A stretch of DNA of 64,000 bases from Porodaedalea pini (lineage: Eukaryota > Basidiomycota > Agaricomycetes > Hymenochaetales > Hymenochaetaceae): assembly GCA_002794775.1 (NCBI GenBank), contig NBAY01000077.1:124001-188000 (forward strand). The letters run 5' to 3'. Positions 23,881-60,786 of the stretch are shown one piece after another (the first letter of the stretch is position 1; each line of letters starts with the position of its first letter). Position numbers and translations under genes: made by a program. The notes under the pieces were generated by a model. It worked only from the letters and a program-made list of their open reading frames with translations. It ran no database searches and was not told the origin of the DNA.

Positions 23881-23886
23881 GCTTTT

Positions 23887-24310: not shown

Positions 24311-25650
24311 TTTTTCTTTATCACACTACATCACTGCTTGTCTTGGTAGCCGTCCCGTCACAGCTGCCTGCCTGCCCAACTGCACTGCTCGAGGCAACGA
24401 AGAGGTCGACAACAGCATGGCAAGAGGACCTCCAATCGCTCTTTCATCGCGCGAAGGATTGCTTCCCAGACGACGTCTGGGATCTAATGGATGAGGACGC
24501 GATGGACAAAGGCCGCAACGCGGACTCGGAGGTTCGGGGACATAAACGTGAGCACAAGCGCAGAACCTACCACCTGTCCTTGAGACTAACAAATGCTAGC
24601 TATCATTTATGCTCGTGCACTACTCAGTTCCCAGGCGCACTATTTCTCGTTCCGCCCGACACCTATCGTGTCCCCACTTCCTTTCGCTGCCTCTCCGACA
24701 TTGTCACTTCCAATGCCGACAACATCTGCACACTCTCTCAACCTTGGCGTTGAGTTCCCCTACCGCCTCAATGTGCTCCACTTCACCTTCCCAATTCTGG
24801 CCTATCTCCCCTGCGCCCTCTGTAATCGGCTCCCTCACGCGCATATCTCTCAACCATAATCCCGTGTTATTCACCAACGAGCTCGAGTATCTCTATACAG
24901 GAAAGGGATTTGGGGATGTGTTTGAGTTTTTGTTCGATGCGAATGAGGAGGGCCGGGAAGGCGACGCCAATGTGGAAGAGGCACGCGTCGACAAGCTTCG
25001 GGAGGACCTTGTGTTCGTGTGGAGGTCTCGTCTGTATTCTGACGTTCGCATTGAACTACACAGCGATATGCCAACAATAGGTGCTCCTTCCAATGAAGAA
25101 GAGACGACCGCCGTCTTCTGCTCACATCGATTTTTTGTTCTTGTAACGCGTGCACCGTATTTCTACGATCAACTCATCACCTATGGTCTCAAGAATACCC
25201 CTGGCCCCGGCGAGCTCACGACCCTTTGCCTTCCCTCACCTCCCTTTGCTCCTCCAGCGCTGCACTTTTCCTTAGGATACTCATACACCGAAACCCTCAG
25301 CTTCAGCGACCATTCATATGACTTGGACACCGCTTTCGCTATCCTGTGCTCCGCGGACTATCTTCAATTGCAGACGCTCCATGACAAGGTGCAGGCACGC
25401 ATCGTGCAGGAGATGCTCCATGGGCTCTTCCACGCTTTCCTCGAATTTGCTGAGTATGAACGTATCACTGGAGGTCGCTGGGGCACAGGTGGGTCTCGCT
25501 GCCGCCAGTGTGCACGTCGCGCACCGCATACGCTCGCGTTTTCCGTGCGTCCAGACGTGCAGAACACATACCTTGAGCGTGGCGTGCGGCGCGCCCTTGT
25601 TGGTCTTTTCGAAGAGGGCTGGTGCATGAAGTGGTTACCACTCTTTCGCG
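24311..25650 (+). pseudogene. BTB/CAP-Gly protein gene, 5' fragment (unit I)
   Basis: Encodes the N-terminal half of a basidiomycete protein with a BTB/POZ-type domain followed by a Ser-rich middle and a CAP-Gly domain. Blocks: TKRSTTAWQEDLQSLFHRAK, an intron with GTGAGCACAAGC-like donor, FTNELEYLYTGKGFGD, LYSDVRIEL, FCSHRFFVLVTRAPYF, LDTAFAILCSADYLQLQTLH, HGLFHAFLEFAEYERITGG, DVQNTYLERG. It stops after GLFEEGWC, where P4-ATPase sequence begins. Frame is open from 24,609. The CAP-Gly end of the same protein lies at 31,191, after about 5.5 kb of foreign gene pieces. Confidence 0.75.
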
Positions 25651-26428
25651 TAAGTCCATTGGCGTCGTCGATTGGAATGGGCGGGCACCTGGTACGGCAC
25701 GTTGGGAACGCACACTCTCGAATCGGAGACATTGTTCTGTTGCGCAATAACGATCAAGTGCCGGCCGACATCATTGTCCTTTCTACTTCGGAAGAGGATG
25801 GCTTATGCTATTTGGAGACGAAGAACCTGGATGGCGAAACGAATCTGAAGCCTCATCGGTCATTGAAGGCGACATCATCTCTGCAGAGCGAGGAAGACAT
25901 TGAGCATGCAAGTTTCGTCCTGGACTCCGAACCGCCGCACGCTAATCTGTACCTTTACAATGGCGTGCTGAGATACCGCGAGCACGAGGCGGGGGCAGAG
26001 AAAGTCAAGCCGGCGACCATCAACGAGATGCTATTCCGTGGATGTTCAATGCGAAACACAACGTGGATTATTGGCTTAGTTGCATTCACTGGCGCGGACA
26101 TGAAGATTATGTTGAACAGTGGGAGCACGCCTAGTAAACGGAGCAAAATCGAACGGGAGACGAACTTTTCTGATTCTTATGTGTCTTGCGACGGGCATTG
26201 CTAATGGCGTTATGGACAGTAAGTCGGATACTAGTGCACATTTCTTTGAACAGGGTAGCGATCCGTCGAGCTCTTCGACCGTTAATGCAATCGTTACTTT
26301 CGTGTGAGTGTCTTTATGGTTCCCTCTGCGATCGCTTACTGATCTTTGACTGTAGGTCTTGCTTGATTGCATTTCAGAACATCGTTCCGAGCTCTCTTTA
26401 CATCTCCATCGAAATCGTGAAGACTATC
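25651..26428 (+). pseudogene. P4-ATPase (Dnf-type phospholipid flippase) fragment
   Basis: Encodes part of the actuator region and the next membrane segments: GDIVLLRNNDQVPADIIVLS, LETKNLDGETNLKPHRSLKA with the conserved DGET at 25,830-25,841, FVLDSEPPHANLYLYNG, INEMLFRGCSMRNTTWIIGL, TPSKRSKIERETNF, then CLATGIANGVMD and SCLIAFQNIVPSSLYISIEI after introns. The frame is continuous with the upstream BTB fragment, giving a 531-codon open frame (24,609-26,204). The phosphorylation site, nucleotide-binding domain and C-terminal half are missing, so it cannot be a flippase. Confidence 0.85.
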
Positions 26429-26691
26429 CTGGCGCCGGAAACTCGGAGCCTACATTCACTGTCATCAGCTATTCCTCTGACATTGAAGCAGAGGTCGACG
26501 GCATTTTAAAGCAGATGTATGGCGAACAGATCACGATCGACCAAGTCATCATCGTGCTACAATGCAGTAAGAAATCTACTAACCGCGCGACCACGAAATC
26601 TTCCCTTGCATGCACCACTTCCTCTTCGACGAATCCAAATTCTTCCAGACGTTCTACCTGCCGTGCGAACTCGCGATGACGGGCCATCTAC
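26429..26691 (+). pseudogene. CNOT1: CNOT1 (NOT1) fragment, left part
   Basis: Resembles the N-terminal region of the CCR4-NOT scaffold: GILKQMYGEQITIDQVIIVL, SKKSTNR, then in a shifted frame CMHHFLFDESKFF and CELAMTGHL. It continues at 27,375 after a MITE; removing the MITE and one TA restores GHLFGSIIQQQLVDYIPFGI. Joined on the left to P4-ATPase sequence after SIEIVKTI. Confidence 0.65.
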
Positions 26692-27374
26692 AGTCGAACC
26701 TGTGTATAAGCATACCGGTGCATAAGCATTACCTGTACATAAGCATTGAATTTTTGATCCACCGAACTCGGTAGGTGGAGAATTCAGGGTCCTATAAGCA
26801 TTATCCCCATAAGCATTTGACATTAAGATTTGAACAAAAATTTAAACCAAAAATGCTTATCTAGAGGTCATCAGGTGACCATATATACCCCCATATGGAT
26901 GCTCTTGTGATGGTATGCGGCTTGGCAAGTAATGATTTTTGTGGCCTGCAGAAAGTAGATAGATAAGCAAAAAAAAAAAAAAACACCTGTCAGATACCCT
27001 TACTTGCCATGCACTCTTGCAGCTAATGTGCTTTTTCAAAAGCCGGACCAGTGCAGAGTTCAGTCAGACACACAAGCTGTTACCAAAGGTCCAAAGCTGT
27101 GACAGGAGCTCCAGAAGGAAATTAACAAAGGTCTAAATGCTAATATTCATAGTTATTTCTCTTAAAGTGTCCTTTGCAACTATTTAACAGCTGAAAGTAA
27201 TGTAAATGTCTTCACCTGCATGTGTGGGTCTTGACATTGGATTGCGTGAGACAGCATTCCATAAATGGAAATAACTTTATTTGTTTATTATGCAATAACG
27301 CGGACAAGCATTCCTGTGTATAAGCATTGGCCGACATGTCCACCGAGGCCAATGCTTATACACAGGTTCGACTG
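26692..27374. mobile_element. pogo/Tigger-like MITE, 683 bp
   Basis: Ends CAGTCGAACCTGTGTATAAG and, inverted, CTTATACACAGGTTCGACTG, flanked by TA at 26,690-26,691 and 27,375-27,376. TIRs of this type (CAGTCGAACC) are typical of the pogo/Tigger branch of Tc1/mariner. There is no transposase, only scattered TATAAGCATT words. Inserted in the CNOT1 fragment. Confidence 0.85.
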
Positions 27375-27424
27375 TATTCGGATCTATCATACAACAACAG
27401 CTAGTTGACTATATCCCCTTCGGT
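27375..27424 (+). pseudogene. CNOT1: CNOT1 fragment, right part
   Basis: Short continuation of the CNOT1 piece interrupted by the MITE: GSIIQQQLVDYIPFGI, the counterpart of the conserved LFGSLIQHQLV segment. It then changes into an unrelated proline-rich sequence near 27,425. Confidence 0.6.
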
Positions 27425-28844
27425 ATTGATCTGTTCTGCTCATCGCCGCCGCCAGTGTGCTCGACTGACTGCTCATCGTACACAGCGCTCGATACTACGT
27501 CTCCCTTGCCATTGCTGAACTCGCTCACGCACCTCACATATCTCATTTCGACTTCACCACGCATCCGAGAGATCCTCACGTGCGACGGTGGCCTCGAGTG
27601 CTTGTCCTCCTCCTTCGCGATTTCTGCCTCTCCCCTCCGCCGCCTGAGAATCCATCGGCGATCTTTGATCTGTCGCCCTCGGGCCTTCCACGTCCAGCAC
27701 TTGTGCCAGCCCTGAACCCAAAGTCGTTCGACCGGCACGCCGCCTACCGATTCTCCCTTGCATTCCAATGTGTGGCCAACATCGGTGTGCGTGGCTCAGA
27801 GCTCATACGGAGCCGCGTCGTCCAGGCGGGTACTCTCGAGGTCGTTGGGTGCGTGTTGGAGGCATGGCTGGAGTCAAAAAGGATTTGTTGTCGGGCCGAG
27901 CACGAGTGCGAGCGGCATACCACGCGAGACCCGTGAACAGCGTCAGCAACGACGGCAGCAGCAATTAGAACAGCGTCAGCGCGAGCAGGCCCAAGAACTC
28001 GTCAGACTGCTCGCTATCGAACGATCCCTTGCGAACACCGAGGTGAGTCATCCATCATCTTTGTTATTGGCTGACTGATCTGAGGGCCTTTCAGGAAGAA
28101 CAAAGCATTGCCACATTGGATGCTGAGACGTTCGTCTCGACTGACACGTCTGCGAGTGCGACGCGGTCTGGCTCAGGTACCCCAACAAGTACGGTCATTG
28201 TACCAGGGCGTGACAGATCTGGCAAGTCGTGGCGCGCCGAGTCTGGGACACACAGCCGAATGCATGCGAGCAGGCAACTGCGGGTGCGTCGATGGCGCGC
28301 TCTCTAACAATTCGCGCCGGATGGTGGCAGAAGCGGCAACGCCCTCGACATCAACTTCGAGGCCTGACACAGAGACGGAGGATGATGGCGAGCCGGATGC
28401 GGATGGTGATGTCGAGATGGAGACGACGACATCACACGACCAGGACATGGACGAAGACTTGCTCCCGCCTCCTTCACTTCCCCACGGACGTCGGACCGTC
28501 GGAATCGTTGCAGACTCTCCCTGACCGGCGGCGACCGGTGCAGCCGATGTAGGTGTCGCGGGTACATCTGATGCGCTCGATGTCGATTTGGATGCACATA
28601 TCATTATCGAGACGAATGCAGCGGACGATGACGTCGTAGATGGGATTGTTGCACTCGATCAAAACGTAAACAATTACCTCGCTATGGGTGCCCCGCCAGG
28701 TGCTCCCGGTGCTATCGATGCGACGCCGCGCACACGCACAAATACTCTCACGTTGAACACACGGAACATCAACCTACCGCGCGAACACCATCATCACCAC
28801 GATCCGCACGTACATGGCCGTGAGGAGCTTACGCCGCGCGCGGT
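27425..28844 (+). pseudogene. ARM-like helical-repeat protein gene fragment
   Basis: Reads PLPLLNSLTHLTYLISTSPR, IREILTCDGGLE, then after a frame change FDRHAAYRFSLAFQCVANIG, VRGSELIRSRVVQAGTLEVV and GCVLEAWLESK, a Gln/Arg-rich coiled segment (ETREQRQQRRQQQLEQRQRE) and an acidic, Ser/Pro-rich C-terminal part (DGEPDADGDVEMETTTSH). The first part looks like armadillo-type helices of a conserved fungal protein I cannot name. Several frameshifts and a stop near 28,520 show decay. It joins PRP8 at about 28,845 (APIQFP, then a PRP8 intron). Confidence 0.55.
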
Positions 28845-29872
28845 GCTCCCATCCAATTCCCGTAAGATCCAAATAACTACGCCTTTCAATAGCTCTCACT
28901 GATGTTTCCATACAGTCCCCTTTCGTACAAGCATGACGCGCACAGCGTCAAAGGTCGTCTTAACGAATCTCAGCGTGGGGAGCTTGCTCTCATTGAGCAG
29001 GCGTATGACAATCCACGCGAATGTATGTTTTTTTTCTAATTGGTCGTAGGGTGTAGCTAATCGATTCGCGTGCAGGTCTGTCTAGGATCAAGCGCCTCTT
29101 GCTCGCTCGGCGAGCCTTCAGAGAGGCAGGCATTGAGTTCTTCGACACATATGGCAAGCTCATCCCCTGCTACGACATCGAACCCGTTGAGAAGATTACA
29201 GACACATATCTTGACCAGTTCTTATTCTTTGAGGCTGACAGGCGCGGGTTATTCCCGGCATGGATCAAGCCTGCGGACATTGAACCTCCTCCCCTTCTGG
29301 TGTACAAGTGTTGTCAGGGTATCAATAACTTGACGGGTATCAATAACTTGACGGACATCTGGGAGACAAGCGAGGGCGAATGCGTAGTGATGATGGAGAC
29401 CGTACTGTCGAAGGTCTACGAAAAGATTGACTTGACCCTTCTCAACCGTTTGCTTCGTCTTATTCTCGACCATAATCTTGCGGACTATATCACAGCGAAT
29501 AATAACTGTGTTTTCACCTACAAAGATATGGCACATACGAACACATACGGGATGATCCGCGGTCTGCAGTTCTCTGCCTTTGTCTTCCAATATTATGGTC
29601 TTGTCCTCGATCTTCTCATCCTCGGCTTGCAACGCGCAAGTGAAATGGCGGGTCCCCCACAACTGCCCAACAATTTCCTGCAGTACCGTGATTCTGCGAC
29701 CGAGACACGCCATCCAGTCCGTCTCTATTTTCGTTATGTTGAACGTTTGCATATTTTATTCCGCTTCACCGCCGAGGAATCACGCGACCTTATACAACGT
29801 TACCTCAACGCGAATCCGGATCCAACAAACAACAACATTATTGGGTATAACAACGAGAGATGTTGGCCGTTG
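28845..29872 (+). pseudogene. PRP8: PRP8 fragment (copy A)
   Basis: Part of the central region of the U5 snRNP protein Prp8. Includes the intron after PIQFP, the exon [20 protein letters not shown], and a long exon with [106 protein letters not shown]. It carries an 18-bp tandem duplication ([12 protein letters not shown]) and lacks about 42 bp in the first exon, a loss shared with copy C. It ends at CWP and changes into RPB1. Confidence 0.88.
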
Positions 29873-31190
29873 AAGGGAAGTGAATCCCGTTTGGCTTCGG
29901 GCATCGCACTCTACCTCACTTTACGGAGGATGACTTCGGCCCAGAGGCGCGCGGTTTCGTTGAGAACTCGTATCTTCGTGGATTAACTCCACAAGAGTTT
30001 TTCTTCCACGCTATGGCTGGTCGCGAAGGTTTGATCGATACCGCTGTCAAGATGGCCGAGACTGGTTACATTCAGCGTCGACTTGTAAAGGCACTCGAAG
30101 ACGTGGCTGTCTGCTACGACGGGACTGTACGAAACTCACTGGACGGTGCTTTTATTGAACGGCAAACGATCAAAACGTTCGGTATCAGTGATCGTGAGTT
30201 CGAACATCGCTATCGGGTCGACGTCACTGACCCAAAGGGTGGATTCCTTCCTGGTGTTTTGCAAATCGGTATCGACGACTCATCCCTCGAGCTCCGGCAA
30301 AAACTCGATGAGGAATACGACCGTCTTCATGAGGATCGTAACTTGCTACATGAATTCATTTTCCCGGGCCGTGACAATTCCGCTGCCCACTATCTTCCTG
30401 TCAACCTGAACCGCATCGTGCAGAACGCAACGCAGATTTTCTATATCGACCACAGAAAACCGAGCGATCTGGAGCCGGTTTACATCATTGAGCAGGTGCA
30501 GCAGCTCGCAGACCGCCTCATCGTTGTGCGCGGCGACGATCTTTTAATAAAGGAAGCTGCCGAGAACGCTTCTGTTGCATTCCGCATGCTCCTTCGGGCG
30601 ACTTTTGCCGCGTGTCCAGTCCTAGAGGAGTTCCATCTCAACAGAGAAGCGTTTGACTGGGTCTTGGGCGAGGTGGAGACAAAGTTCAACCAGTCGGTCG
30701 CTCATCCGGGCGAGATGTGCGGCACACTTGCTGCCCAGTCGATTGGTGAGCCGGCGACGCAGATGACACTAAATACCTTCCATGACGCTGGTGTTTCGAG
30801 TAAAAACGTCACGCTCGGTGTGCCGCGTCTTAAAGAAATCATCAACATCGCCGTGAATATCAAGACTCCGTGTACCTGGACCCAGAAATTGCTGCTGTCG
30901 ACACGAGGGCCAAGTCGGTGCAAACAGAACTTGTGCACACATCGCTGCGTACCGTTACAGCGACGGTCGAGATCTACTACGATCCTGATTCAAGTACGAC
31001 GATCATTGAGGATGATAAGGAGTTTGTTGATGCATTCTTCTCCATCTCCGACGAGGAAATTGAGTCGGGTCCTCATCTTCAGTCGCCATGGCTACTTCAT
31101 CTTGAGCTCGATCGCTTGAAGATGCTTGACAGGAAACTTACGATGAACTACGTTGCTGGCCGTATCGCGGAAAGCTTGGCCATTGCCGAA
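29873..31190 (+). pseudogene. RPB1: RPB1 fragment (copy A)
   Basis: RNA polymerase II largest-subunit sequence from the pore/funnel to the trigger-loop region. Begins VEGK/IPFGF-like in a shifted frame, then [125 protein letters not shown], then [13 protein letters not shown] in another frame. The conserved trigger-loop His is kept (TFH) but the next Tyr is Asp. The active-site Asp motif, clamp and CTD are absent. It ends at about 31,190 where the CAP-Gly fragment starts. Confidence 0.88.
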
Positions 31191-31894
31191 AATGCCATCT
31201 AAGGAAAATATTGACCCTGAAGATCCTCCCAATACAGGCAGTACATTGACGATTAAAGGGGAGGGGAAGGGGAAAGGGCGGATGGATGCCATCATCGCAG
31301 ACGACAGATCTCTGCGATCGAGCGACAACGGATCAAATACAACTCTCGCTACATTGCGGCACAAGGAATCGAATGACACCATTACCCTCAATCGAGTGCC
31401 TGCGGGGGAGACGGACATGCTGCAACCCCGTGGCGCTACATTGGACATCGGCATTCCATGTATCATTACTTCTTCAAGGCAGAAGCGGTTCCGTGCGTTT
31501 GCCCATTATATCGGCGAGGTTGAGGGTGAGAGCGGGCCATGGGTCGGTGTCGAGATGCCCGTGGGTGATGCTTGGGCAGACGATCAGCTTGAGGGCCGCC
31601 AGTGGAATGACGGCTCATGGGGTGGCGTGCGCTACTTTGGCATCGGAATGGGGTGACGACGAATGCATGACCAGCCGGCAATGCGTTGATTTGACGAATA
31701 ACTGTGGAACTAGTGTTATTAGTGGCTGGAAGGGCACGAAGCGCGAGGGGGAGCAGCTCAGCGTTGACCGCAAGAAGTGTTTCCGTAGCAGTTCGCCGTC
31801 AGTGTCGGACATGTCGAACGCAGAGTATCGAGGTCTCTTTGTGAGGCCACAGCAGGTGCTGTATGTTGTAGATGCTGTCGGTTCGGGCTTGTGA
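31191..31894 (+). pseudogene. BTB/CAP-Gly protein gene, 3' fragment with CAP-Gly domain
   Basis: Encodes Ser/Lys-rich linker (SKENIDPEDPPNTGS, MDAIIADDRSLRSS) and then a CAP-Gly domain: RGATLDIGIPCIITSSRQKR, FAHYIGEVEGESGPWVGVEM, RQWNDGSWGGVRYF. After a frameshift near 31,655 it continues GTKREGEQLSVDRKK, SVSDMSNAEYRGLFVRPQQV and LYVVDAVGSGL with a stop at 31,892-31,894, the expected natural C-terminus. CAP-Gly domains bind tubulin or EB1 tails. This is the end of the protein whose start lies at 24.3 kb. Confidence 0.75.
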
Positions 31895-32029
31895 ATCTTG
31901 GAACATATTTAAGTTCGGATTCCTGCCCTTTTTCTTTTTCTTTCTTTCTTTCTTTTACCCTACTCCCATTTTTTGTCACTCCTTGCTCTGGACAGATGCC
32001 CTTATCACTGAAATCACTTGTTGGCATGT

Positions 32030-33786
32030 TCATATTCCTCTCTTGTCTACTCAATCATATCACTCTGGATTCTCGAATTGCACCTTTTGGAGAAATTTTT
32101 AATCAGTTTTTGAATGCTGCTGGTTTTTTAGTTAGTACTTGAGGTAGTGGGCCATTAGGATGGCAAGCTATGATTACTGTTTACTGAATACTAAATAATT
32201 CACTAATGAGAATAATATTTTAGTATAATTTGCAAGCTTTAGTCCTCTCATATAAAATGAAAGACACAGAAAACAGTAATCATAGCTTGCCATCCCAATG
32301 GCCCACTACCTCAAGTAACTTCTGGAGAGTGTCCATTTATTGTACATGAAATCACTAGTGAAGATATTACAGGCAAAAAATCAAAGGAACTAGCAGCTCT
32401 TTCTTTACAAGCACTTATTCAAGGAAACACTAAGAGTGTAATGGCTGTTGGAAGGTCTGAGAATCCACAGAGTATATACAACAACCCACAACTCTATCCT
32501 AAGATGTTTCCATGGTTATTTCCTTATGGCCTAGGTAGTGTTTGCAATACTAGAGGCAAGATAAAGATGGTTTCTGCAGCTCAGTGGAAGAAATGGCTTC
32601 TTATGTATCATGATAAAAGGTTTCAGCTTGATCAACACTTTGTCCTAGCTGCATTTAATCAAGAACAAATTAAGCAAGCTACCACTGGAGGTTTCTTAAT
32701 GACTAAGAGAAAAAACTTTCAGAATATTGTTGACAAAGTTTTGAAAATTGATATACATACTCTACAGCAGCTTTCTGCAAGATTAAGTGCAGGAGAACAT
32801 GTCACACCTGAGTCAGAAGAGGAAAAAGAGTGTTTTGAGTTACTTAACAATCTTGATCATGCTGCATATAAAGTAGATGGGTCTTTGACATCCAAAAGAC
32901 ATATGAGGAATGAAACTTGGTCTCTAATGTATCAAGAAGGTGCACCAAACTGGTTCATTACATTGTCACCTGCAGATATAAAGCATCCTATCTGTTTATA
33001 TTTTGCTGATACAACTGAAGAGTTCAAGCCTGAGATAAAGACAGATGATGAGAGAATGAGACTTATAGCTAATAATCCTGTTGCTGGCAGTCGCTTCTTT
33101 CATATGGTAGTTAGTCTATTTATAAAACATATACTGGGTTTAGATACTGATCATGATGGTTTATATGGAAAGACAGCAGCATACTATGGCACTGTTGAAC
33201 AGCAAGGATGTTTGCCACTTCATTTACATCTTCTACTCTGGATTAAAGGCTCACCAAGTCTTAGAGAAATTAGAGACAGAATGACAGAACAGTCTGAGTT
33301 TCAGAAAGAACTTATTGCATATCTTGAGTCATGTCATACAGGTGATTTCTTAACAGGCACAAAAGATGAAATAATAGAGACTGTTCAGCAAGCTTCTCAA
33401 GATACTTTCTATTGTGATCCTACTCAAGTTTTACCTGAACCTGTACCTCAAAACTACAATAAGAATTGTCAAGTCTGTTCTGCTTGTACTCAGAATTCAA
33501 ATTGGTGGGATAAATTTAAGTATATGGTTGATGATATTTTATTAAAATCAAATACTCATAGATGCAGGAGAGGAAAGTGTATTGATAATGATAAACACAA
33601 GACATGTAAAGCTCGTTTTCCAAGAGAGCTCAGTGAAGATCAGTGAAGAAACTAAAGCTGATTTAAATACTGGTGCAGTAAAATTCAAGAAGACTGAGCC
33701 ATGGATTAATACTTTTACACCTATATTGTCATATCTTCTGTGCTGTAATCATGATGTCACCTGTCTTCAATCAAGCACAGCAGTTA
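32030..33786 (+). pseudogene. Helitron Rep/helicase gene, 5' remnant (HUH domain)
   Basis: Reads IAPFGEIFNQFLNAAGFLV before the MITE at 32,138, then GECPFIVHEITSED, SENPQSIYNNPQLYPKMFPW, LFPYGLG and, in an open 401-codon frame (32,441-33,646), the Helitron_like_N domain: WSLMYQEGAPNWFITLSPAD, FFHMVVSLFIKHILGLD, EQQGCLPLHLHLLLWIKG, which contains the HUH metal-binding motif (HLH). The catalytic Tyr region is only partly covered (TFYCD, YNKNCQVC), and the helicase half is missing because the foldback at 33,787 cuts it off. Orientation is the same as the gene fragments. Base composition is clearly more AT-rich than its neighbours. Confidence 0.8.
32138..32315. mobile_element. 178-bp MITE (copy 1), TA target duplication
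   Basis: TIRs CTTGAGGTAGTGGGCCATTA and, inverted, ATGGCCCACTACCTCAAG; similarity extends about 40 bp inward to GCTATGATTACTG. TA on both sides (32,136-32,137, 32,316-32,317). It is inserted in the Helitron remnant. A second copy of identical length lies at 53,880. Confidence 0.88.
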
Positions 33787-34636
33787 CAGCCTTTTTCATA
33801 AGTCCTGCGACACATGCATGTCACGTGAAGTGAGCTGTGTCAGAGCCAAAGTGTTGAAAAATTAGAATGAATGCCTATTTTCTCTGTGAATTCTGCACAG
33901 TACCTGCTCATTAAGTACTCAAAAAAAAAGGCACGGTTCTCAGGAGAAGAAATATGTAAAATAGGGAGCAATAAATTGACTGTGTAGGTGGGTGGAGATC
34001 AAACAAGTGCAGCTGGTCTGTTCTCTCACCCATTTCCACCGAGATTCAAAACTTATAGCTCCCCTAAATCTACCTGTAAAATTCTTTCCTATGTCTGTAA
34101 ATTAAGTATATGACTATACCAACATCTCCTGCAAGTTTGAAGCCAATCCATTCAGTATTCATGGTGCAGCAGCAAGATTTGTGTTCTGTTCTGCAAGACC
34201 TGTTGTGAGAAAAGGAGGGTGGAAAGAGCTTGAAGTGGAACACAAATCTTGCTGCTGCACCATGAATACTGAATGGATTGGCTTCAAACTTTCAGGAGAT
34301 GTTGGTATAGTCATATACTTAATTTACAGACACAGGAAAGAATTTTATAGGTAGATTTAGGGGAGCTATAAGTTTTGAATCTCGGTGGAAATGGGTGAGA
34401 GAACAGACCAGCTGCACTTGTTTGATCTCCACCCACCTACACAGTCAATTTATTGCTCCCTATTTTACATATTTCTTCTCCTGAGAACCGTGCCTTTTGT
34501 TTGAGTACTTAATGAGCAGGTACTGTGCAGAATTCACAGAGAAAATAGGCATTCATTCTAATTTTTCGACACTTTGGCTCTGACGCGGCTCATTTCACGT
34601 GACATGCACGTGTCGCAGGACTTATGAAAAAGGCTG
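33787..34636. mobile_element. 850-bp foldback element with about 400-bp arms
   Basis: Nearly the whole element is two inverted arms (left about 33,787-34,190, right about 34,232-34,636), outer ends CAGCCTTTTTCATAAGTCCT, with a roughly 40-bp spacer. Arms differ by few substitutions. TA lies on both sides (33,785-33,786 and 34,637-34,638), as for Tc1/mariner MITEs. The left flank is Helitron sequence, the right flank is the interior of repeat R1, so the element sits on a rearrangement junction. No coding capacity. Confidence 0.88.
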
Positions 34637-34925
34637 TAATTTTGGACCCCTTTTCTGCTAATTGAGCGGTGGCGATGAAGTCGTTCACTGCTTTTGTGGC
34701 TGTACAGTGCTCACTTTCTTTATCAACATATTTAATTTTATTCAACCATCCAAATCGCAAGTTTGAACCATGTAAAAAAACTTCAGACAATTCTCTGTCT
34801 GTCTATGTATTTTTTGTAAAATAAAATGGCCTGGTTGAATTAAAAATCGGTCGAAAGCAGAGTTGACGACAGTGCCAACATGTGATCTCCACCCTTGCGG
34901 TCGTCGACGAGTCTGTTTTGCTGCA
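34637..34925 (+). repeat. Repeat R1 (copy 3), 5' truncated, head of unit II
   Basis: Enters R1 at TAATTTTGGACCCC, then follows the other copies through ATTTAATTTTATTCAACC, GACGACAGTGCCAACATG and GATCTCC to GTCGTCGACGAGTCTG. The first about 120 bp of R1 are absent, replaced by the foldback. BTB gene sequence follows. Confidence 0.8.
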
Positions 34926-35175
34926 GCAAAGACACTTGCTCGAGGCAACAAAGAGGTCGACGACAGCATGGCAAGAGGACCTCCAATCGCTCTTTCATCG
35001 CATGAAAGATCGCTTCCCAGATGTCGTCTGGGATCTACTGGATGAGGACGCGATGGACGAAGGCAGCAACGCGGACTCGGAGGTTTGGGGACATAAAGGT
35101 GAGCACGAGCACAGAACCTACCACCTGTCCTTGAGACTAACAAATGCTAGCTATCGTTTATGCTCGCGCTATTTC
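34926..35175 (+). pseudogene. BTB/CAP-Gly protein gene, first exons (unit II)
   Basis: LLEATKRSTTAWQEDL, FHRMKDRFPDVVWDLLDEDA, SEVWGHK followed by the same intron as in unit I (donor GTGAGCACGAGC, acceptor before TATCGTTTATG). It stops shortly after the intron and changes into eIF4G sequence near 35,176. Confidence 0.7.
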
Positions 35176-35351
35176 TCGTTCTCCTCCTCGCCGGCGCCTT
35201 CCCCACCTCTTGCTAAATCGGAGTCGCGGCCTGTACAGTTGTTCGGCTCCATCGAAGCAACGCAAAGCAGCATGCCGATGACAGCAAAGCCGTCTCTGGC
35301 ATCTGCATCTTCCATCTTATCTGCTGCATTGTCGTCTTCTGCGGCATCAGG
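35176..35351 (+). pseudogene. eIF4G: eIF4G fragment (copy 1, short)
   Basis: About 175 bp from the disordered N-terminal part: SSSPAPSPPLAKSESRPVQL, FGSIEATQSSMPMTAKPSLA, SASSILSAALSSSA. Same segment as 47,395-47,560. Flanked on both sides by pieces of the BTB/CAP-Gly gene. Confidence 0.7.
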
Positions 35352-36440: not shown

Positions 36441-36494
36441 CTAGTACGTGTTTATCCACCTTTAACTCAATGTATGGTCGTTGATTAGTGTATT

Positions 36495-38060: not shown

Positions 38061-38064
38061 TTGC

Positions 38065-46607: not shown

Positions 46608-46707
46608 TACGATTACTGAGTTTACAAAGTATTACGATTACTGAGTTTACAAAGTATTACGATTACTGAGTTTACAAAGTATTACGATTACTGAGTTTAC
46701 GAAGTAT
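46608..46707 (+). repeat. 25-bp tandem repeat, four copies, at the R1 5' end
   Basis: Unit TACGATTACTGAGTTTACAA plus AGTAT at 46,608, 46,633, 46,658 and 46,683; the last unit has TTTACGAAGTAT as in single-copy R1 ends. Elsewhere R1 has one unit only. TACGATTACTG is also shared with the inner TIR of the 178-bp MITE. Confidence 0.88.
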
Positions 46708-52800: not shown

Positions 52801-53879
52801 CCCGTGTCGAGATCGGCTTGAACAGTAAGATGCCTTCGCGTTTCCCTTCGGTCATCTTCTACACCCCCAAAGTAAACATCGCACCTCTTATGTATATCCG
52901 CAACGGCATGCCGGGTAAGCATGTCCATTTCGCTGTAGAGAAATGCGCTCAGCTGTTCATCCTTATCCAGATCCGCTCAAGGTCCATCTTCTCGAATTCC
53001 CAAACATTGTCATTAAATGAAGTGAGCTGCGATTGTCGTTCCAAGCATGTATGAAGATGGGGAAGTTTGGCGACCTCATTCTTGTAAGTATATCCGTCGT
53101 TAGAGGCTGGCCTGCTGCTCAACTTGTTCCGTAGTGCGCAATGCAACCCCAGATGGTGCTCTTCAACCTTTACGGTGTGAGTTATCTTTTTTTCGTACGA
53201 GGACGACCTTTTAATATTTCGCTATAGATGATTGGCTGAAGTCAATCTCAAGTTACATGGCATTTTCGCGTCTCATCCTCCTCCTGTGTGGTTTGCATGT
53301 AAACAATGAGAGGGCTAAGATCATCTTACGCCCTGAGAAGTCGACAATCACAGAGCCGCGCTTTGTCTGGCCAACGCTGTCTGAGGATGACTGGATTAAG
53401 GTTGAAGTGGCTTTGAAGGATCCCATGCTTGCTGTATGTTGTAGTACCTTGCTCTATTGCTTTGTATCCATCTGATCCATTCTTTAAAGGATTTTGGCAA
53501 GCGGAACAGCGTGAACATCGCTTCTCTGACAGCCAGCGAAATTCGCGACATTATTCTTGGCCAGGAGATTGCTGCACCGTCTGTGCAGCGTCAGAAAATG
53601 GCTGAGCTCGAGAAAAGCACGGAAGCTCGGGCACAAGTCACTACTGTTCAAACGTGAAGTTTCTTGACTGTCAGTATGTTGATCAAGCCCTTACGACATA
53701 CATTTTTCACAACAAAACCACGAACATTCATGGTGATGCAATTCAGACTGTCACCAGTAAGTTTAATTGGAATGTCACTTGTTTGTCAATCTTCTGATGT
53801 TTGTCTCTTTCAGCGACCAACTATGAACAGCAGGTCTTTTCAAGCAAGTCTGACTGGCGCGTTCGTGCTATCTCGGCTA
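49836..53879 (+). pseudogene. PRP8: PRP8 fragment (copy C) with 3' segment
   Basis: Runs from [20 protein letters not shown] through [80 protein letters not shown], the shortened exon [77 protein letters not shown] and [11 protein letters not shown]. It then skips the RT-like, endonuclease-like and RNase H-like core and resumes with [14 protein letters not shown], [60 protein letters not shown], up to the start of the Jab1/MPN part (FSSKSDWRVRAISA). Stops, frameshifts and the deletion preclude function. It is cut by the MITE at 53,880. Confidence 0.9.
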
Positions 53880-54057
53880 CTTGAGGTAGTGGGCCATTGG
53901 GATGGCAAGCTACGATTACTGTTTACTGAATAGTAAATAATTCACTAATGAGAATAATGTTTTAGTATAACTTTCAAGCTTTAGTCTTCTCATATAAAAT
54001 GAAAGATACAGAAAACAGTAATCGTAGCTTGCCATCCCAATGGCCCACTACCTCAAG
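53880..54057. mobile_element. 178-bp MITE (copy 2) at a chimeric junction
   Basis: Same family and length as 32,138-32,315; TIRs CTTGAGGTAGTGGGCCATTG and inverted ATGGCCCACTACCTCAAG. The left flank is PRP8 ending in TA, the right flank starts TCGTCTTTTGTTG, which is R1 from the base after its GAAGTA. The right TA expected from simple insertion is missing. Confidence 0.85.
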
Positions 54058-54430
54058 TCGTCTTTTGTTGTGGGCCGAGATAAAGTCCCCAATTTGGGTT
54101 TTTGTCAGCTTTTATAAGCTGATGGCATACCATATGTTAATTTTGGACCCCTTTTCTACTAAATTGAGCTGTGGCTATGGACCGACTCACAGCTTTTGTG
54201 GCTGTACAGTGCTCACTTTCTTCATTGGCATATTTAATTTTATTCAACCATCCAAATCGCAAGCTTGAACCATGTAAAAAAACTTCAGACAATTTGATAT
54301 CTGTCTATGTATTTTTGGTAAAATAAAGTGACCTGGTTGAATTAAAAATCGGTCGAAAGCAGAGTTGACGACAGTGCCAACATGTGATCTCCAGCTCAGC
54401 GGGAGGCAGCAAAGACACTCGCTTCGCTCC
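54058..54430 (+). repeat. Repeat R1 (copy 5), head of unit IV
   Basis: Begins at TCGTCTTTTGTTGTGGGCCG, lacking the first 24 bp of R1, and continues as in other copies to GACGACAGTGCCAACATGTG, GATCTCCAGCTCAGCGGGAG and AAAGACACTCGCTTCGCTCC. eIF4G sequence follows. Confidence 0.82.
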
Positions 54431-54597
54431 CTCATAAGTCTGCTTAGGCCAAGGGCCCTCCTCAAGCCACATCCGCAGTGTCTTCACCTCGTTCTCAGTC
54501 GCCAGCTCCTGCCGCTCCAAAAGCTCAGACGCAGTCACAATTGAGAAGGCCATCGCAACTAGGAGGTTTCAAGGATGCAGTCGGTGTTGGAATTGCG
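54431..54597 (+). pseudogene. eIF4G: eIF4G fragment (copy 4, short)
   Basis: KGPPQATSAVSSPRSQSPAP, then RRPSQLGGFKDAVGVGIAN. Counterpart of 47,112-47,250. Changes to BTB gene sequence at about 54,598 (MDKGSNADSKVW). Confidence 0.7.
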
Positions 54598-56128
54598 AAC
54601 GATGGACAAAGGCAGCAACGCGGACTCGAAGGTTTGGGAATATAAAGGTGAGCACGAGCGCAGAACCTACCATCTGTCCTTGAGACTAATAGTTGCTAGC
54701 TATCGTTTATGTTCATGCACTACCCAGTTTCCAAGCGCGCTATTTCTCGTTCCGCCCAGCACCTATTGTGCCCCCAGCGAGCTCACGACCCTTCGCCTTC
54801 CCTCGCCTCCCTTCACTCCTCCAGCACTGCACTTTACCTTAGGATACTTATACACCGGCACGCTCAGCTTCAGCAACCATTCATATGACTTGGACACCGC
54901 TGTCGCTACCCTGTGCTCCGCGAACTATCTTCAATTGCAAACGCTCCATGGCAAGGTGCAGGCACACCTCGTGCAGGAGATGCTCCATGGGCTCTTCCAC
55001 GCTTTCCTCGAATTTGCTGAGTATGAACGTATCACTGGAGGTCGCTGGGGCACAGGTGGGTTTCGCTGCCGCCGGTGTGCACATCGCGCACCGCGTACAC
55101 TCGTGTCTTCCGTGTGTCCAGACGTGCAGAACACATACCTTGAGCGCGGCGAGTGGCGTGCCCTTGTTGGTCTTTTCGGATAGGGCTGGTGCACGCCGGA
55201 CTTCGCTGCACTCCCGCAGCAGACGAAAGACGGGTTGATGACCGGCCTGAAGAAGCGTGCGCTCCTGCAGAATGTGTTTCCTTTGCTCTTCGCTGCGCAT
55301 GCGGCCTTAGTGAAGCTCAACTCTGTGCGCGAAGCTGGGTAGAGGGTGTGAGAGAAATGGTTTATGACAGCAAGGGGGTTTTGTGGATGCGCTGCTTTGC
55401 AACGAGGCGGAGAAGTGTTTGAATGAGCGCGAGTGGGTTGAGATTATGGAGAATGATGGGCTAGGACGGTTTGAGGACGGGGAGCGCATTGAGTGGGTTA
55501 TGGAGGCTGTGCGGAGGGGCATGGCGGAGTCGAATGCTGGCATGCTCTATCAGGTGAGTATTAAAATATAATCGGGTTTATTGTTGTGCTCATTCCTTCG
55601 CAGACTCTCGTTTCCGCAATTCTTCTCCGTCAGTACCCTGCGGAACCAAGTGAGACCCTCTTATCAAGCATTTCCCACATCTGTGTGCAAGTTGAACAGA
55701 CTCGTATGGATCTGCTTCACTGGATGCGAAGGCGCTGGGTCAGTATCCGGAACGAGGGTGGCTTCGATGCGTTGGAAAGTTGGGGGATCAAGGAGATCAG
55801 CGATGGTATTGCTAATAACAATCTACAGAGATCAACGTCCCGGTCGAAGATCTTCTAACGCCGACGACGAGCAACTCCAACACGGTGCGTGGGCCGCTTA
55901 TGCAAGCAGGCCTCCGCCCCACACTCGGCGAGGTCGAAGACACCACTGAGCGCGATAGCATGAGCACGTCGCATTCGCTTCGTACGAACGTGCTGAACAA
56001 GAACCTTGCTTGCGGGAATGCAGCTGTCACCTCGTCTAGCGCATCTGTCCGGAGCGTAGCGCGCAGCGTTGCGTCGATGACTAGCCGAACGTCATCGCGC
56101 CTTACGACTGCGACGGAGCATGAGCGTA
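54598..56128 (+). pseudogene. BTB/CAP-Gly protein gene fragment (unit IV)
   Basis: NADSKVWEYK and the usual intron, then ELTTLRLPSPPFTPPALHFT, LGYLYTGTLSFSNHSYDLDT, HGLFHAFLEFAEYERITGGR, a TAG at about 55,181, then in the same gene GLKKRALLQNVFPLLFAAHA, EREWVEIMENDGLGRFEDGE, an intron near 55,553-55,603, LVSAILLRQYPAEPSETLLS, HICVQVEQTRMDLLHWMRRR, EDLLTPTTSNSNT and the Ser-rich start SMSTSHSLRTNVLNKNLACG to ATEHERK. About 300 codons upstream of ELTTL are missing compared with unit I. It changes to PRP8 at 56,131. Confidence 0.75.
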
Positions 56129-56320
56129 AGGTGGGCACCGGCGCCTTGCAGTCGCCGCTCGGGACACTTGCGCCGCACGCAAGATGTACCACTGGTGAAG
56201 AACTGGTACTTGGAGTACTGTCCACCGAACCAGCCTGTAAAGGTCCATGTGTCGTACCAGAAGCTACTCAAGTGCTTTGTTTTCAACGAGCTGAAGACGA
56301 GGCCGGGGAAGCTGATGACG
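56129..56320 (+). pseudogene. PRP8: PRP8 fragment (copy D, short)
   Basis: [20 protein letters not shown] frame, [40 protein letters not shown] and MT. Start of the second copy of the 3,709-bp block (56,132 corresponds to 40,974). Confidence 0.83.
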
Positions 56321-57684
56321 AGTCAATACGCACAGAAGAACCTGATGGAAGACAACAATGTCAAACAGATGGTTGTCGCGGGTTCGAAGGGTTCGTTCAT
56401 TAACATCTCGCTGATGTCTGTCTGTGTTGGTCAGCAGTCCATGGAAGGGAAGCGAATCCCGTTTGGCTTCAGGCATCGCACACTACCTCGCTTTACAAAA
56501 GACGACTTCAGCCCAGAGGCGTGCGGTTTTGTTGAGAACTCATATCTTTGTGGATTAACTCCTCAAGAGTTTTTCTTCCACGCTATGGCTGGTCGCGAAG
56601 GTTTGATCGATACCGCTGTCAAGACGGCCGAGACTGGTTACATTCAGCGTCGACTTCAAGTTGTAAGGGCACTCGAAGACGTGGCTGTCTGCTATGACGG
56701 GACTGTACGAAACTCACTGGGTGACCTGATTCAATTCGTGTATGGCGAGGATGGTATGGACGGTGCTTTTATTGAACGGCAAACGAACGGCAAACGATCA
56801 AATCATTCGGTATCAACGATCGCGAGTTTCTTCCTGGTGTTTTGCAAGTCGGGATCGATGACTCATCCCTCGAGCTCCAGCGAAATCTTGATGAGGAATA
56901 TGACCGTCTTCATGAGAATCATAAATTGCTCCGTGAATTCATTTCCCGGGCCGTGACAATTCCGCTGCCCACTATCTTCCTGTCAACCTGAACCGCATCG
57001 TGCAGAACGCAACGTAGATTTTCCTTATCGACCGCAGAAAACCGAGCGATCTGGAGCCGGTTTACATCATTGAGCAGGTGCAGCAACTGGCAGACCGCCT
57101 CATCGTTGTGCGCGGCGATGATCTTTTAATAAAGGAGGCTGCCGAGAACGCTTCTGTTGCATTCCGCATGCACCTTCGGGCGACTTTTACCGCGCGTCCA
57201 GTCCTAGAGGAGTTCCATCTCAACAGAGAAGCGTTTGACTGGGTCTTGGGCGAGGTGGAGACAAAGTTCAACCAGTCGGTCGCTCATCCGGGCGAGATGT
57301 GCGGCACACTTGCTGCCCAGTCGATCGGTGAGCCGGCGACGCAGATGACGCTAAATGCCTTCTATTACGCTGGTGTTTTGAGTAAAAGCGTCACGCTCGG
57401 TGTGCCGCGTCTTAAAGAAATCATAACGTCGCTGCGAATATCAAGACTCCGTCGCTCACAGTTTACCTGGACCCAGAAATTGCTGCCGTCAACACAAGGG
57501 CCAAGTCGGTGCAAACAGAACTTGCATACACATCGCTGCATACCATTACAGCGGCGGTCGAGATCTACTACGATCCTGATCCAAGTACGACGATCATTGA
57601 GGAGGATAAGGAGTTTGCTGATGCATTCTTCGCCATCTCCAACGAGGAAATTGTGTCGGGTCTTCATCTTCAGTCGCCTGGCAC
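56321..57684 (+). pseudogene. RPB1: RPB1 fragment (copy D)
   Basis: Same as copy [53 protein letters not shown] insertion, QTNGKRSN duplication with frameshift, [60 protein letters not shown]. The trigger-loop His is again Tyr. Confidence 0.87.
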
Positions 57685-57983
57685 TTGAGCGATGCGATGC
57701 TCGAGTTCCTCCGTCAGTCACAAGGAGTGGTGCATCTTCAGAAGTTCTTCAGAAAAATGAGGGTGACGATGAACTATCTTGGGTACCGAAAGCGCAGCAG
57801 CATCAAGAGCTTTGGTTCTGCGACTGCAAAGAAGATGACGTCCCACAGCGAGGAGTTGGGGAAGGTAACTGTTGAGAAATACTTCCAAAAGAGTAAGTCA
57901 TTCGGAATCGTTCATATCAACCTCACTAAACTGCATCGATGGAGTTTGGATTGCTCTGAAGCATGCGGATGACCTGCCTGTCA
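57685..57983 (+). pseudogene. Argonaute PAZ-domain fragment (copy 2)
   Basis: [55 protein letters not shown], intron, IALKHADDLPV. Residues here are slightly closer to the PAZ consensus than in copy 1 (NYLGYRK). Confidence 0.72.
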
Positions 57984-58253
57984 TGAGCATCAGGACGAAG
58001 GATAAAAATATGATGAACAAGAACCTTGCTCGCAGAAACGTGGTTGTCCCCTCATCTAGTTCATCTGGTGCATCTGTTCAGAGCATAGAGCGCAGCGTTG
58101 CATCAACGACTAGCCATGAATCATCGTGCCTTATAACTGTGGCAGAGTGTGAGCGCAAGGAGAGCCGATCAAATCCGAAGTTTGCGCCGTCCACCCCACG
58201 TAGCACGAGCCCAAGCATCCATAGGGCACCGAGTGCGCTCTTGTATACTTCAG
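57984..58253 (+). pseudogene. BTB/CAP-Gly gene, Ser-rich fragment (copy 3)
   Basis: SIRTKDKNMMNKNLARRNVV, GASVQSIERSVASTTSHESS, ECERKESRSNPKFAPSTPRS. Unlike copy 2 it has no stop here (RSNPKF where copy 2 has a TGA). Confidence 0.65.
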
Positions 58254-58407
58254 GTATGGACGTCGTCACCGTCAATCGCCGCTGCGGGAGTGGGCATGGG
58301 AAACACTTATGGCATTCAGGGGCAGCAGGGATGAACATCGGGCATGGGCATACAAAGGCCGTTAGTAGTGTCGCATCCCCTACGGCAGTAATGAGAAGGT
58401 CATTGAT
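58254..58407 (+). other. Unidentified piece (second copy)
   Basis: Counterpart of 43,096-43,249 (frame SIAAAGVGMGNTYGIQGQQG). Not recognised. Confidence 0.4.
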
Positions 58408-58731
58408 ACTAAGGTGCGATCTCCATCAAATTTACTCAAAGGCGGAGTCTCAGTTTATACACAGGACTTGGTTGTCTGTGATTTTGCACTGCTCGAACCA
58501 GGTAAGGTTGTCTCATGTGATGGTATCTTCCTCTCAGGACACAGTGTTAAATGTGACAAGTCTGGCATTACAGGTGAAAGCAATGTAATAAAGATGGCAT
58601 CCTATGCAGAGTGCTCCAAAGCCGATGCTGGTGGCTGTCTTGGTGCACATACGGCCCGGTTTGTTATTAGTGTCGGTAGCTACGTTGTCATTGCTGTTGG
58701 TGCGATGAGCTTCGATGGATGGATCATGGTG
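58408..58731 (+). pseudogene. PMC1-type Ca2+-ATPase fragment (copy 2)
   Basis: VYTQDLVVCDFALLEPGKVV, SCDGIFLSGHSVKCDKSGIT, GESNVIKMASYAEC, GSYVVIAVGAMSFDGWI. LLEPG matches the family better than LLKPG of copy 1. Confidence 0.78.
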
Positions 58732-59033
58732 GTATGTTTGTCTTTCCCGCCACCATTGCTTAATGATAACTTAATTGAAGTATTCAGCACACTGTTATCA
58801 CTTCACATGTTCCTTACTTCACCAAAATTATACAAACAGATAGAGTATTTTCTGAACTTTTTTTACATGCTTCATTCAAGCACAAGGTTTTATTGGAGTG
58901 TCGATATCAAAGCCCTTAAAAATATGTTAGTAACGTGTACGACAATTGTGTCGGAGTTGCAACCCACTTCGAGTCATAATAATATTGTAATCTCGATGTG
59001 GCGTAGTTTTCAGACATCAATCTTGGCTTGAAG
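58732..59033. other. Unassigned spacer in the duplicated block (second copy)
   Basis: Counterpart of 43,574-43,875; nothing recognised. Confidence 0.4.
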
Positions 59034-60786
59034 ATGCATCGTGTCTTTTCTGTCTTAGAGGTCTTTGGTCTTATCATTTGTTCGCTACACAGCAAGAACG
59101 CACTATATCAATGCTTGTTTGTGTGCAAAGAATGGTGTTGTGTCATTTTAGACGCCCTTTGGGAAGAGTTGGACGATGTGTTGCCTTTAGCGGCCCTCCT
59201 AGGACACTTGGTCCAGTCGAAAGAGGTATGATCATACACTAAGAGCATCATATATAATGACTTCCCTTTAATTTTAGTATCCAGAACGGTTGATATTCGA
59301 GAGAGCAATCACGAATGATGATGCAAACCTCTTTTGTAAATATATCTGCCGAGTGAGGAGTCTGAAAATCGATTTCAGGAAATCAAGGCTGTTGTCAGAT
59401 GTCATCTCAAAAATGGGATCGAAGCTGTCTTACGACGTTATGAACAAACTCCACCATTTTGAAGTCATACTTCTAACCCGAGAGGATTTGGATCCTTGCG
59501 TAGCCTTCATCAAGGCAAGGAATCTGGAGGAGGTTTCCTTTGACTTCCGTCCCTTGTGGAAATTCCATACCGAATCTGGTCCAGAGTACAAAACAGATGA
59601 TGAACCGGAGTTTATCCACCTAGACTTTGACGGTTGCATGACGAAGTTTGCTGGCTTAGTTCCAAATCTTAAGCGATTTAGGATTTATCACGTTGATACC
59701 ACCCAAAACTATGCATGGGATTTTCTATCTTCCTTGAAGAAACTGGAACAATTCACATGCACGCTATACATGCTCACTCCAAATGTGATGAAGCCGTTGT
59801 CACAGTTACCTGATCTTCAGATCATCAACTTTGAGGAAGTCATGGATGAACCGATGCCTTTTCCTCGGTTAGGGACCTACGGATCATTCTCCAGGCTTGT
59901 CGCAGTCTCCATTGGAGCACGATACGATGATATTACAAGTCTTCTAGGGATAGACTTTGCTCCCAACATGAGCAAGCTCTACGTTCACTCCCCTGAACTG
60001 GAATCGACATTTTCATTGGGTCAACTCATCAAGCGAGTCTCGCAGAGGGGTCATCGACTGGGAAAACTATTACTTAGTTCTGTCCCAAAGTCCGAGCAAT
60101 TGTCAAATCAGGACAATGCAGAGACTGACGATGTGACCTTATCGATTTTGGCGCCTCTTGCGAAGTGTAATCAACTTACAGAGTTGGTGCTTTCTCATCA
60201 CCGTGGATTGCAAATCACTGACTCCGATATTGAAGCCCTCATGGAGCACTGGAGTTCGATCAAGGTCTTGTGTTTGTGTGAGGACCCTGCCTACTTGGAG
60301 ACACCTTCTTTGACTCTTGACAGTCTGAGCATTATCGCCGTGCATTGCAAAAAAATCCGATTTCTTGCGTTGTTCATCGATCCAGGTACAACTCAAACAC
60401 TTTCGTTAGACAAACATCGATTTAAGGCCTTGAAAGAAATTTGATTTGGATTGTCTCCGATCAAGAAGGATGACCTTAAGCCGGTTGCATTATACCTCAG
60501 CCATGTCCTTTCACCTTATTGCGATGTCTCCTCTTTGTATTCATCAGATTTCTTCAGACTGAAGTTCCCAGGACTCTATGTGGATGATCGGGATGAGGAG
60601 GATATGAAGTGGGAGGGGTGGAACTATCTCCATGAAGAAAGATGGGAATTGATAGGATCTGCGTTAAGGGAACTCTGGGACAAAGGTACCGATATCGACC
60701 GTTGTGTGGATGACAGATTGGAAAATGGATGGGTCCAAGATGTATCCTCACCCTCATCCTCTGAAGCGGAAGAATTGACAGAATGA
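59034..60786 (+). pseudogene. F-box/LRR-like protein gene, nearly full length, one internal stop (copy 2)
   Basis: ATG 59,034, an intron of about 52 nt from 59,227, then one long exon. N-terminal F-box-like helices (ALYQCLFVCKEWCCVILDAL) are followed by a long region with leucine-rich character: LKIDFRKSRLLSDVISKMGS, FAGLVPNLKRFRIYHVDTTQ, LAPLAKCNQLTELVLSHHRG, IEALMEHWSSIKVLCLCEDP, LDSLSIIAVHCKKIRFLALF, FKALKEI. A TGA at 60,442-60,444 interrupts what reads on as FGLSPIKKDDLKPVALYLSH to a natural stop at 60,784-60,786 after an acidic tail. Either a single nonsense mutation has inactivated the gene, or a protein truncated by about 114 residues is made. Basidiomycete F-box proteins of this kind are numerous and fast evolving; substrate unknown. 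Confidence 0.7.

Follow-up and report, generated by a model that had tools for sequence, protein, structure and literature searches.

How did pieces of several essential genes of a fungus come to stand within 36 kb of one contig, with introns retained and in different orders? The question is raised by positions 24311-60786 of a 64,000-nt stretch of the Porodaedalea pini genome, referred to as the window (C77:124001-188000 of a 53.27-Mb assembly in 201 contigs; C plus a number denotes a contig of the assembly and L plus a number a locus fetched from it). An earlier note had described a mosaic of shuffled host-gene fragments resembling capture by Helitrons or Pack-type elements. The evidence supports a pile-up of rolling-circle Helitrons with bodies assembled from pieces of essential host genes. 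With a probability of about 0.86, it is a nest of non-autonomous Helitron2-like elements, produced by capture of host genes in an ancestor bearing a RepHel gene and by subsequent reshuffling, truncation through new terminators, and self-insertion. The nested units A, B/C, D and E would all belong to a single family mobilised by the rolling-circle mechanism.

Gene identities come from Pfam scans of the three forward frames of positions 23801-63400 and from PDB sequence searches, and the anatomy was resolved by self-comparison of the window, 20 fetched loci, and comparison of element ends. At least ten donor genes had been claimed: six were recovered by Pfam or PDB searches, and CNOT1 was identified through the related element L024, the window piece falling under the Pfam cut-off (E 7e-4 and 2e-4) and the corresponding stretch of L024 being CNOT1 with a best E of 3e-85. 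The four RPB1 pieces reappeared as RPB1 domains in four units (A, B, C and E) on the forward strand, and the four or five PRP8 pieces as PROCN, RRM_4, U5_2 and domain IV in A, B, C/E and D; the P4-ATPase piece is of the DNF1 type, and the PMC1-type ATPase is represented by PMCA-type pieces. Two of four proposed eIF4G pieces were found (48843-49105 and 49580-49819, both in D) and the others were unconfirmed. Of the BTB/CAP-Gly protein the CAP-Gly piece stood, with a weak BTB match (E 0.017), and the F-box protein was reduced to a weak F-box-like match (E 0.0015). Argonaute PAZ and an ARM-like protein were recovered by neither the forward-frame Pfam scans nor the PDB searches, and both identities were dropped. 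All confirmed pieces lie on the forward strand, as the claim of a strand bias would have it, and the reverse frames contained no Pfam family in the two of four 9.9-kb blocks that were scanned.

Ends of the elements

The 5' end (TTACGATTACTGAGTTTACGAAGTA) occurs 123 times in the genome with at most two mismatches, and a control pattern not at all. The 3' end is a near-perfect palindrome of 180 bp, the 32-bp terminal arm of which occurs 204 times (control, 0). The listing as far as contig C75 contains 72 5' ends and 99 arms; of these 5' ends, 54 have a palindrome within 16 kb downstream, versus 24 of 72 on the wrong side. Copies of unit A share identical, exact 5' and 3' ends in different flanks; nine fetched copies are approximately 99% identical to A but lack a 684-bp insert, and both ends are in hand for three of these nine. 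A retrocopying route through antisense transcripts, considered because introns were kept, was rejected on account of these precise Helitron-like ends. The introns themselves, called by eye, are present in the copies without large gaps: one of 50 bp in PRP8 (the first 50 bases of the minus strand of L048) and one in RPB1 (approximately 3602-3657 of the parental stretch). The removal of introns that marks retrocopies is thus absent for both genes, as the earlier note had recognized.

The structure of the ends resembles that of Helitron2 elements, for which asymmetric repeats, a 3' hairpin, insertion at T and a lack of target duplication have been described (PMC3627910). The 5' asymmetric repeat TACGATTACTG begins 1 bp from the 5' end, within the Helitron2 range (0-2 bp from the end, 8-15 bp long); its complement CAGTAATCGTA sits in the 3' end and stops approximately 32 bp from the terminus, slightly outside the stated range. 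Between CAGTAATCGTA and the 3' terminus is a hairpin with a 5-bp stem (z -3.05 and -1.77 for the two ends folded). The palindrome as a whole folds at -64.2 kcal/mol (z -17.6) with inverted arms of approximately 47 bp, and bears a complete 3' terminus in either orientation. A T is found at the junction in all four empty sites of the outer 3' end (one from a match of only 70%) and in the single empty site of the inner palindrome junction. No flush target duplication was seen by eye in the seven elements with both flanks in hand, of which the copies on C171 and C143 share a left flank and may be recombinant. Canonical Helitron1 ends (5' TC, 3' CTRR, insertion between A and T) were not found: the elements start with TTACG and end with CTCAAG before T, and the base on the outer side of the 5' end varies between copies. 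Most of the end features tested fit Helitron2.

The same ends could be those of a cut-and-paste element, a Pack-type transposon with terminal inverted repeats (TIRs) that picked up gene pieces, and the 47-bp inverted arms of the 3' palindrome, together with the inversion of part of the 5' end inside it, would suit such an element. However, the seven elements lack the flush target duplication that Pack-type capture entails, the inverted repeat is asymmetric, being at the 5' terminus but approximately 32 bp inside the 3' terminus, and it is RepHel that is linked to these ends (no search was made for a DDE transposase with the same ends); this half of the earlier interpretation is quite unlikely. 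Nor was the palindrome taken for an independent miniature inverted-repeat transposable element (MITE) with TIRs, its outer flanks being without target duplication.

The RepHel gene and its RPB1-PRP8 cargo

The Pfam family Helitron_like_N has 10 matches in the genome, and one RepHel copy contains both this domain and PIF1. A search with the last 829 residues of one RepHel gave 30 rows, representing 18 places where the C-terminus is present. At 16 of the 18, the 5' end of the window elements lies 6.1-7.7 kb beyond the RepHel C-terminus in antisense orientation, whereas three control configurations of 5' end and RepHel accounted for 1, 1 and 0 places in the range of 5.5-8 kb, and linkage in the same sense, run as a control, yielded single cases at most. 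Antisense RepHel genes are known from some Helitron2 elements (PMC3627910, PMC5148889). The RepHel-bearing copies are therefore probably the autonomous partner of the elements in the window.

These copies carry the same cargo. At 16 of the 18 places, pieces of RPB1 (domain 6) and PRP8 (PROCN), antisense to RepHel, are found less than 8 kb from the RepHel C-terminus, on the side where the 5' end is linked; with a few outliers, their distances from it are 2.65-2.8 kb (RPB1) and 1.7 kb (PROCN) on one strand and 3.0 kb and 2.6 kb on the other, the strands differing because start coordinates were used. The exact RPB1-PRP8 junction of unit B (38071) occurs 21 times in the genome, the window included, and by coordinates 15 of these occurrences are beside the 18 RepHel places. 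Because of this recurrence, the RPB1-PRP8 fusion is considered an inherited part of the RepHel-bearing family, unit B included, and B has the gene order of the RepHel-bearing elements. The PRP8-RPB1 junction of A (29869) is present in 16 of the 20 fetched loci, and the junction at 41163 shared by C and E occurs only four times in the genome. The different gene orders that had been described are thus real: PRP8-RPB1 in A and C/E versus RPB1-PRP8 in B. When orientation is judged against the closest 5' end no more than 10 kb away, RPB1 is sense at 66 places and antisense at 5 (39 of 110 unassigned), and PRP8 is sense at 45 and antisense at 2 (20 of 67 unassigned). Given the RepHel linkage and the recurrent junction, the repeated use of the same donors, which had seemed unusual, mostly reflects inheritance and reshuffling of early captures, with few fresh ones.

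The order of events may have been as follows. A RepHel-bearing ancestor would have captured pieces of the host RPB1 and PRP8 genes as DNA, introns included, and its copies would still carry these pieces beside the antisense RepHel gene. Pieces of CNOT1, eIF4G, the ATPases and CAP-Gly, and perhaps of the F-box and BTB genes, would have been added later and shuffled between copies.

Segmental duplication with ectopic recombination among repeats could also have shuffled host genes, with Helitrons as bystanders. Two A copies, on C171 and C143 (L012-L015), share their left flank, and their right flanks differ, each being shared with another contig; exchange between copies, or switching in assembly, therefore does occur. 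Recombination probably contributes to the reshuffling, but as the sole cause it is contradicted by exact common ends in different flanks, by the 123 occurrences of the 5' end and by the near-fixed spacing from RepHel, and it has little probability. Still less credible is an artefact of collapsed repeats. The assembly consists of 201 contigs with many repeats, and the long-range order of near-identical copies may be wrong in places; however, at the level of contigs, the donor junction of A was seen again in 16 of 20 fetched loci and that of B at 21 genomic places, and the region is not the local misassembly that the earlier note had allowed for. As a separate observation on the assembly, RNA polymerase large-subunit matches at C8:1149568-1150559 and C153:20010-21001 have an identical score pattern, which suggests, at the level of scores rather than of a base-by-base comparison, that some contigs are duplicated haplotypes.

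Several observations weigh against a Helitron2-like nest. A 5' hairpin is predicted in two of three folded copies but is no more stable than in shuffled sequences (z -0.94, -0.75 and +1.16), and only one of two 5' empty sites has the T, the site at 46607 disagreeing. The left flank of A (to 23885) is not RepHel although its right flank is, so that its insertion site offers no clean pair of empty and filled states. Two of the 18 RepHel places have no linked 5' end at 6.1-7.7 kb. The tie between RepHel and the element ends is one of position and concerns the 5' end. Purifying selection on RepHel is mild, is relative to one copy, and appears only against the two most distant copies (L038 and L041); the others give no clear sign of selection. 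Several RepHel copies are broken, so that present activity is no more than possible.

Terminators, nesting and layout of the window

In the loci compared, the palindrome has a precise inner edge, but the point of the body that precedes it varies: A ends at TTAGTTAGTA, the bodies of L020, L012/L025/L026 and L028 are approximately 80-280 bp longer, and that of L021 is shorter. Two nested palindromes are present in L026 and again in L028. A terminator arm lies 39 bp beyond a RepHel gene cut at residue 501 on C54 and 112 bp beyond one cut at residue 691 on C14; on C75, where RepHel is cut at residue 523, one arm among those listed is at a fitting distance. We infer that the palindrome can insert as a whole into an element, where it then serves as a new stop. 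In Helraiser experiments the 3' hairpin is a terminator (PMC4778049), and Helitron2 elements of Chlamydomonas include one-ended insertions that have an intact 3' end (PMC3627910). Placed inside an element, the 180-bp palindrome would halt replication, the sequence beyond it, RepHel included, would be lost, and a non-autonomous copy would result.

Such elements would then have inserted into one another, including at a T in their own 5' end. Unit E begins at base 27 of the 5' end, so that precisely the first 26 bases are missing, and D's own 5' end is preceded by three further copies of 25 bp. These copies may be what remains of older elements that received nested insertions inside their 5' ends, at the T that follows GAAGTA. 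A similar junction, with a terminator running into a 5' end, is found at C23:461793. A head-to-tail concatemer of D and E was rejected, as their contents differ and their 5' ends are only 86.9% identical; nested insertion is preferred because it explains the 25-bp copies before D as well as the bases that E lacks. The density of fragments, which had appeared unusual, is accounted for by nesting of at least four elements, to which a retroelement, a foldback element and an insert resembling a MITE are added (Table 1). The common ends, the copy numbers, the positional linkage to RepHel, the shared junctions, the nested arrangement of D and E and the decay of the copies are direct observations, and rolling-circle mobilisation, the action of the terminator and its entry as a unit belong to the model built on them.

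Table 1. Features of the nested elements, in window coordinates
Feature	Position	Strand	Remarks
Unit A	23886..32316	+	complete non-autonomous element; P4-ATPase, CNOT1, PRP8, RPB1 and CAP-Gly pieces
5' end of A with 5' asymmetric inverted repeat (TTAYRATTACTG)	23886..23912	+	
P4-ATPase (DNF1-type) piece	25719..26171	+	E 9e-52
CNOT1 piece, split by 684-bp insert	26467..26690	+	certain through related element L024
684-bp insert, inverted ends, TA on both sides	26691..27374	+	absent in nine other A copies
PRP8 piece (RRM_4), intron retained	28844..29869	+	
RPB1 piece, parental 4614-5973	29867..31177	+	3-bp microhomology at join to PRP8
CAP-Gly piece	31483..31641	+	Pfam
180-bp palindromic 3' terminator of A	32137..32316	.	
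RepHel fragment (Helitron_like_N), from another element	32317..33790	+	abuts 3' end of A
856-bp foldback (palindromic) element	33784..34639	.	copies also interrupt RepHel gene on C54
Unit B, 5'-truncated	34637..40973	+	RPB1 (36416-38071) fused to PRP8 (38070-40487)
Unit C	40974..44682	+	PRP8 end, RPB1 41164-42528, PMCA 43271-43441, weak F-box-like 43918-44016
Repeat with weak gag match at 46445-46600	44683..46606	+	D cluster inserted in it
Three 25-bp copies of 5' end	46607..46681	+	directly before D
Unit D	46682..54058	+	complete non-autonomous element; eIF4G, PRP8 PROCN to domain IV
180-bp palindromic 3' terminator of D	53879..54058	.	
Unit E, rest of older element with 5' end entered by D	54059..60786	+	PRP8, RPB1 56322-57686, PMCA 58447-58596

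The insert within the CNOT1 piece of A looks like a MITE, and the repeat with the gag match is probably a retroelement. Unit C is 97.7% identical to positions 56132-59840 within E, which also carries weak F-box/LRR pieces; no 3' terminator for E was found between 54059 and the end of the window. To the left of the 36-kb region, another 5' end of the Helitron2-like family (14655-14795) stands beside a further copy of the gag-bearing repeat (13704-14630). Other features there are a weak DDE_3 match (17843-18661, minus strand), an open frame of 1065 aa that includes a QLQ domain (18561-21758, minus strand) and a 114-bp tandem repeat (20264-20633).

Donor genes, related Helitrons and significance

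Parental loci, the absence of which would have counted against the earlier note, exist elsewhere in the genome. The resident RPB1 gene on C5 (L029, L032 and L046) is intact over its long 3' exon, which is open for 1207 aa; the resident PRP8 gene on C12 matches both PROCN and PROCT and was read over 1.2 kb. A frame slip in the latter (L048, approximately 561-565 of the + strand), at a run of C on the minus strand, is most likely a homopolymer sequencing error.

Over 990 columns of RPB1 (330 codons), 32 differences from the resident gene are common to 90% or more of the copies; third positions account for 29, and 30 are synonymous, so that these shared differences reflect the sequence of a donor allele that was under selection. 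When each lineage is reduced to one representative, 15 of 18 shared differences in positions 4800-5371 are likewise at third positions. The 235 changes present in at most half of the copies are spread evenly over codon positions (76/76/83), with 75 synonymous and 160 not, which is near the unconstrained expectation: the copies have evolved free of codon constraint. Compared with resident RPB1, twelve lineage representatives show 2.9-4.3% divergence at first and second positions, with a third-position excess of 6.0-9.3%. Had the donor belonged to the resident lineage, that excess should not be much over a neutral 3.5%, and the observed excess is higher (29 third-position differences versus approximately 11.6 expected; Poisson probability approximately 1e-5). 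PRP8 has no such excess, with 10 shared differences in 851 bp; third-position counts are 29/330 for RPB1 versus 4/267 for PRP8 (Fisher P 9e-5), the PRP8 count having been made by hand over a stretch with the resident frame slip, and mutation rates may differ between the genes. The RPB1 donor was probably a diverged allele, and a horizontal origin or introgression is possible.

The tree of copies is nearly a star, with modest support for deep nodes and a recent burst of A. A 10-bp deletion (parental 5656-5665) is common to A-type pieces and to those B-type relatives that reach it (L020, L022 and L024; L027 nearly does), and is absent from C/E. A fresh capture for each RPB1 piece is not favoured in light of this deletion; the sequences point to one main capture that may have been reshuffled later, with C/E possibly captured separately or branching off early. 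The check for microhomology at breakpoints revealed 2-3 bp at the three junctions with parental sequence on both sides, little above chance.

Why the RepHel-bearing copies retain this cargo may have an explanation in a hostage relationship, which we regard as improbable: the RPB1-PRP8 pieces would protect the element, as silencing small RNAs would also hit the host's own RNA polymerase II and splicing genes, and the host would be unable to silence the family fully. The pieces have similar spacing and sense orientation in most RepHel-bearing copies, and the arrangement requires no reading frame and therefore fits decay without codon constraint. If it holds, the CNOT1 and eIF4G pieces would extend the shield.

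Taken as a whole, what had been observed is partly confirmed, and the interpretation as Helitron capture is supported by the common precise ends, 3' hairpin, T at 3' insertion sites, absence of target duplication and linked RepHel genes; there is good support for gene capture by a family of Helitron2-like elements. These elements resemble Helitron2/Helentron and their non-autonomous HINE/DINE relatives in their asymmetric terminal inverted repeats, in the 3' hairpin that follows the 3' repeat, in insertion at T and in the lack of target duplication at intact ends (PMC3627910, PMC4067079). Unlike those, they have a 180-bp palindromic 3' end with a full terminus at both of its ends, and bodies consisting largely of host gene pieces. 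Besides earlier examples, the study of Helentrons reports gene fragments only from Culex and Phytophthora, at frequencies below those of maize or bat (PMC4067079). Gene-capturing Helitrons of maize are likewise non-autonomous and hold pieces of many host genes, but their termini differ, and here the RepHel-bearing copies themselves hold the shared RPB1-PRP8 cargo (PMC2575219). Among fungal elements, FoHeli of Fusarium oxysporum shares the asymmetric repeats and, in some copies, an inverted RepHel, and one of its elements is inserted 2 bp from the 5' end of another, comparable to the self-nesting described here; its authors listed 27 putative captures and saw no evidence of an important role for capture (PMC5148889). 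HELPO of Pleurotus ostreatus also carries additional gene-like cargo but differs in its A/T insertion and 3' CT[A/T]G ends, and its authors describe intact elements as giving no evidence of host gene fragments (PMC4289320). The Helraiser/Helibat system has a hairpin terminator, the bypass of which captures flanks and creates new 3' ends, experimentally there and by inference here (PMC4778049). No Helitron with RPB1 or PRP8 pieces was found described in the titles and abstract openings listed by searches of a PMC collection, from which most subscription papers are absent.

What is new is the scale of capture in this genome, the inherited RPB1-PRP8 cargo of the RepHel-bearing copies, the palindromic terminator and the self-nesting. 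Heavy capture in P. pini contrasts with the little or none reported in the FoHeli and HELPO studies (PMC5148889, PMC4289320). With a probable autonomous partner that carries the same fused cargo, captures, reshufflings and truncations can be ordered in time. The palindromic terminator suggests a route by which non-autonomous Helitrons originate, a new stop signal severing the RepHel gene. With a shared cargo drawn from essential genes of gene expression, the idea that captured genes cause epigenetic conflict can be tested in a genome of small size.

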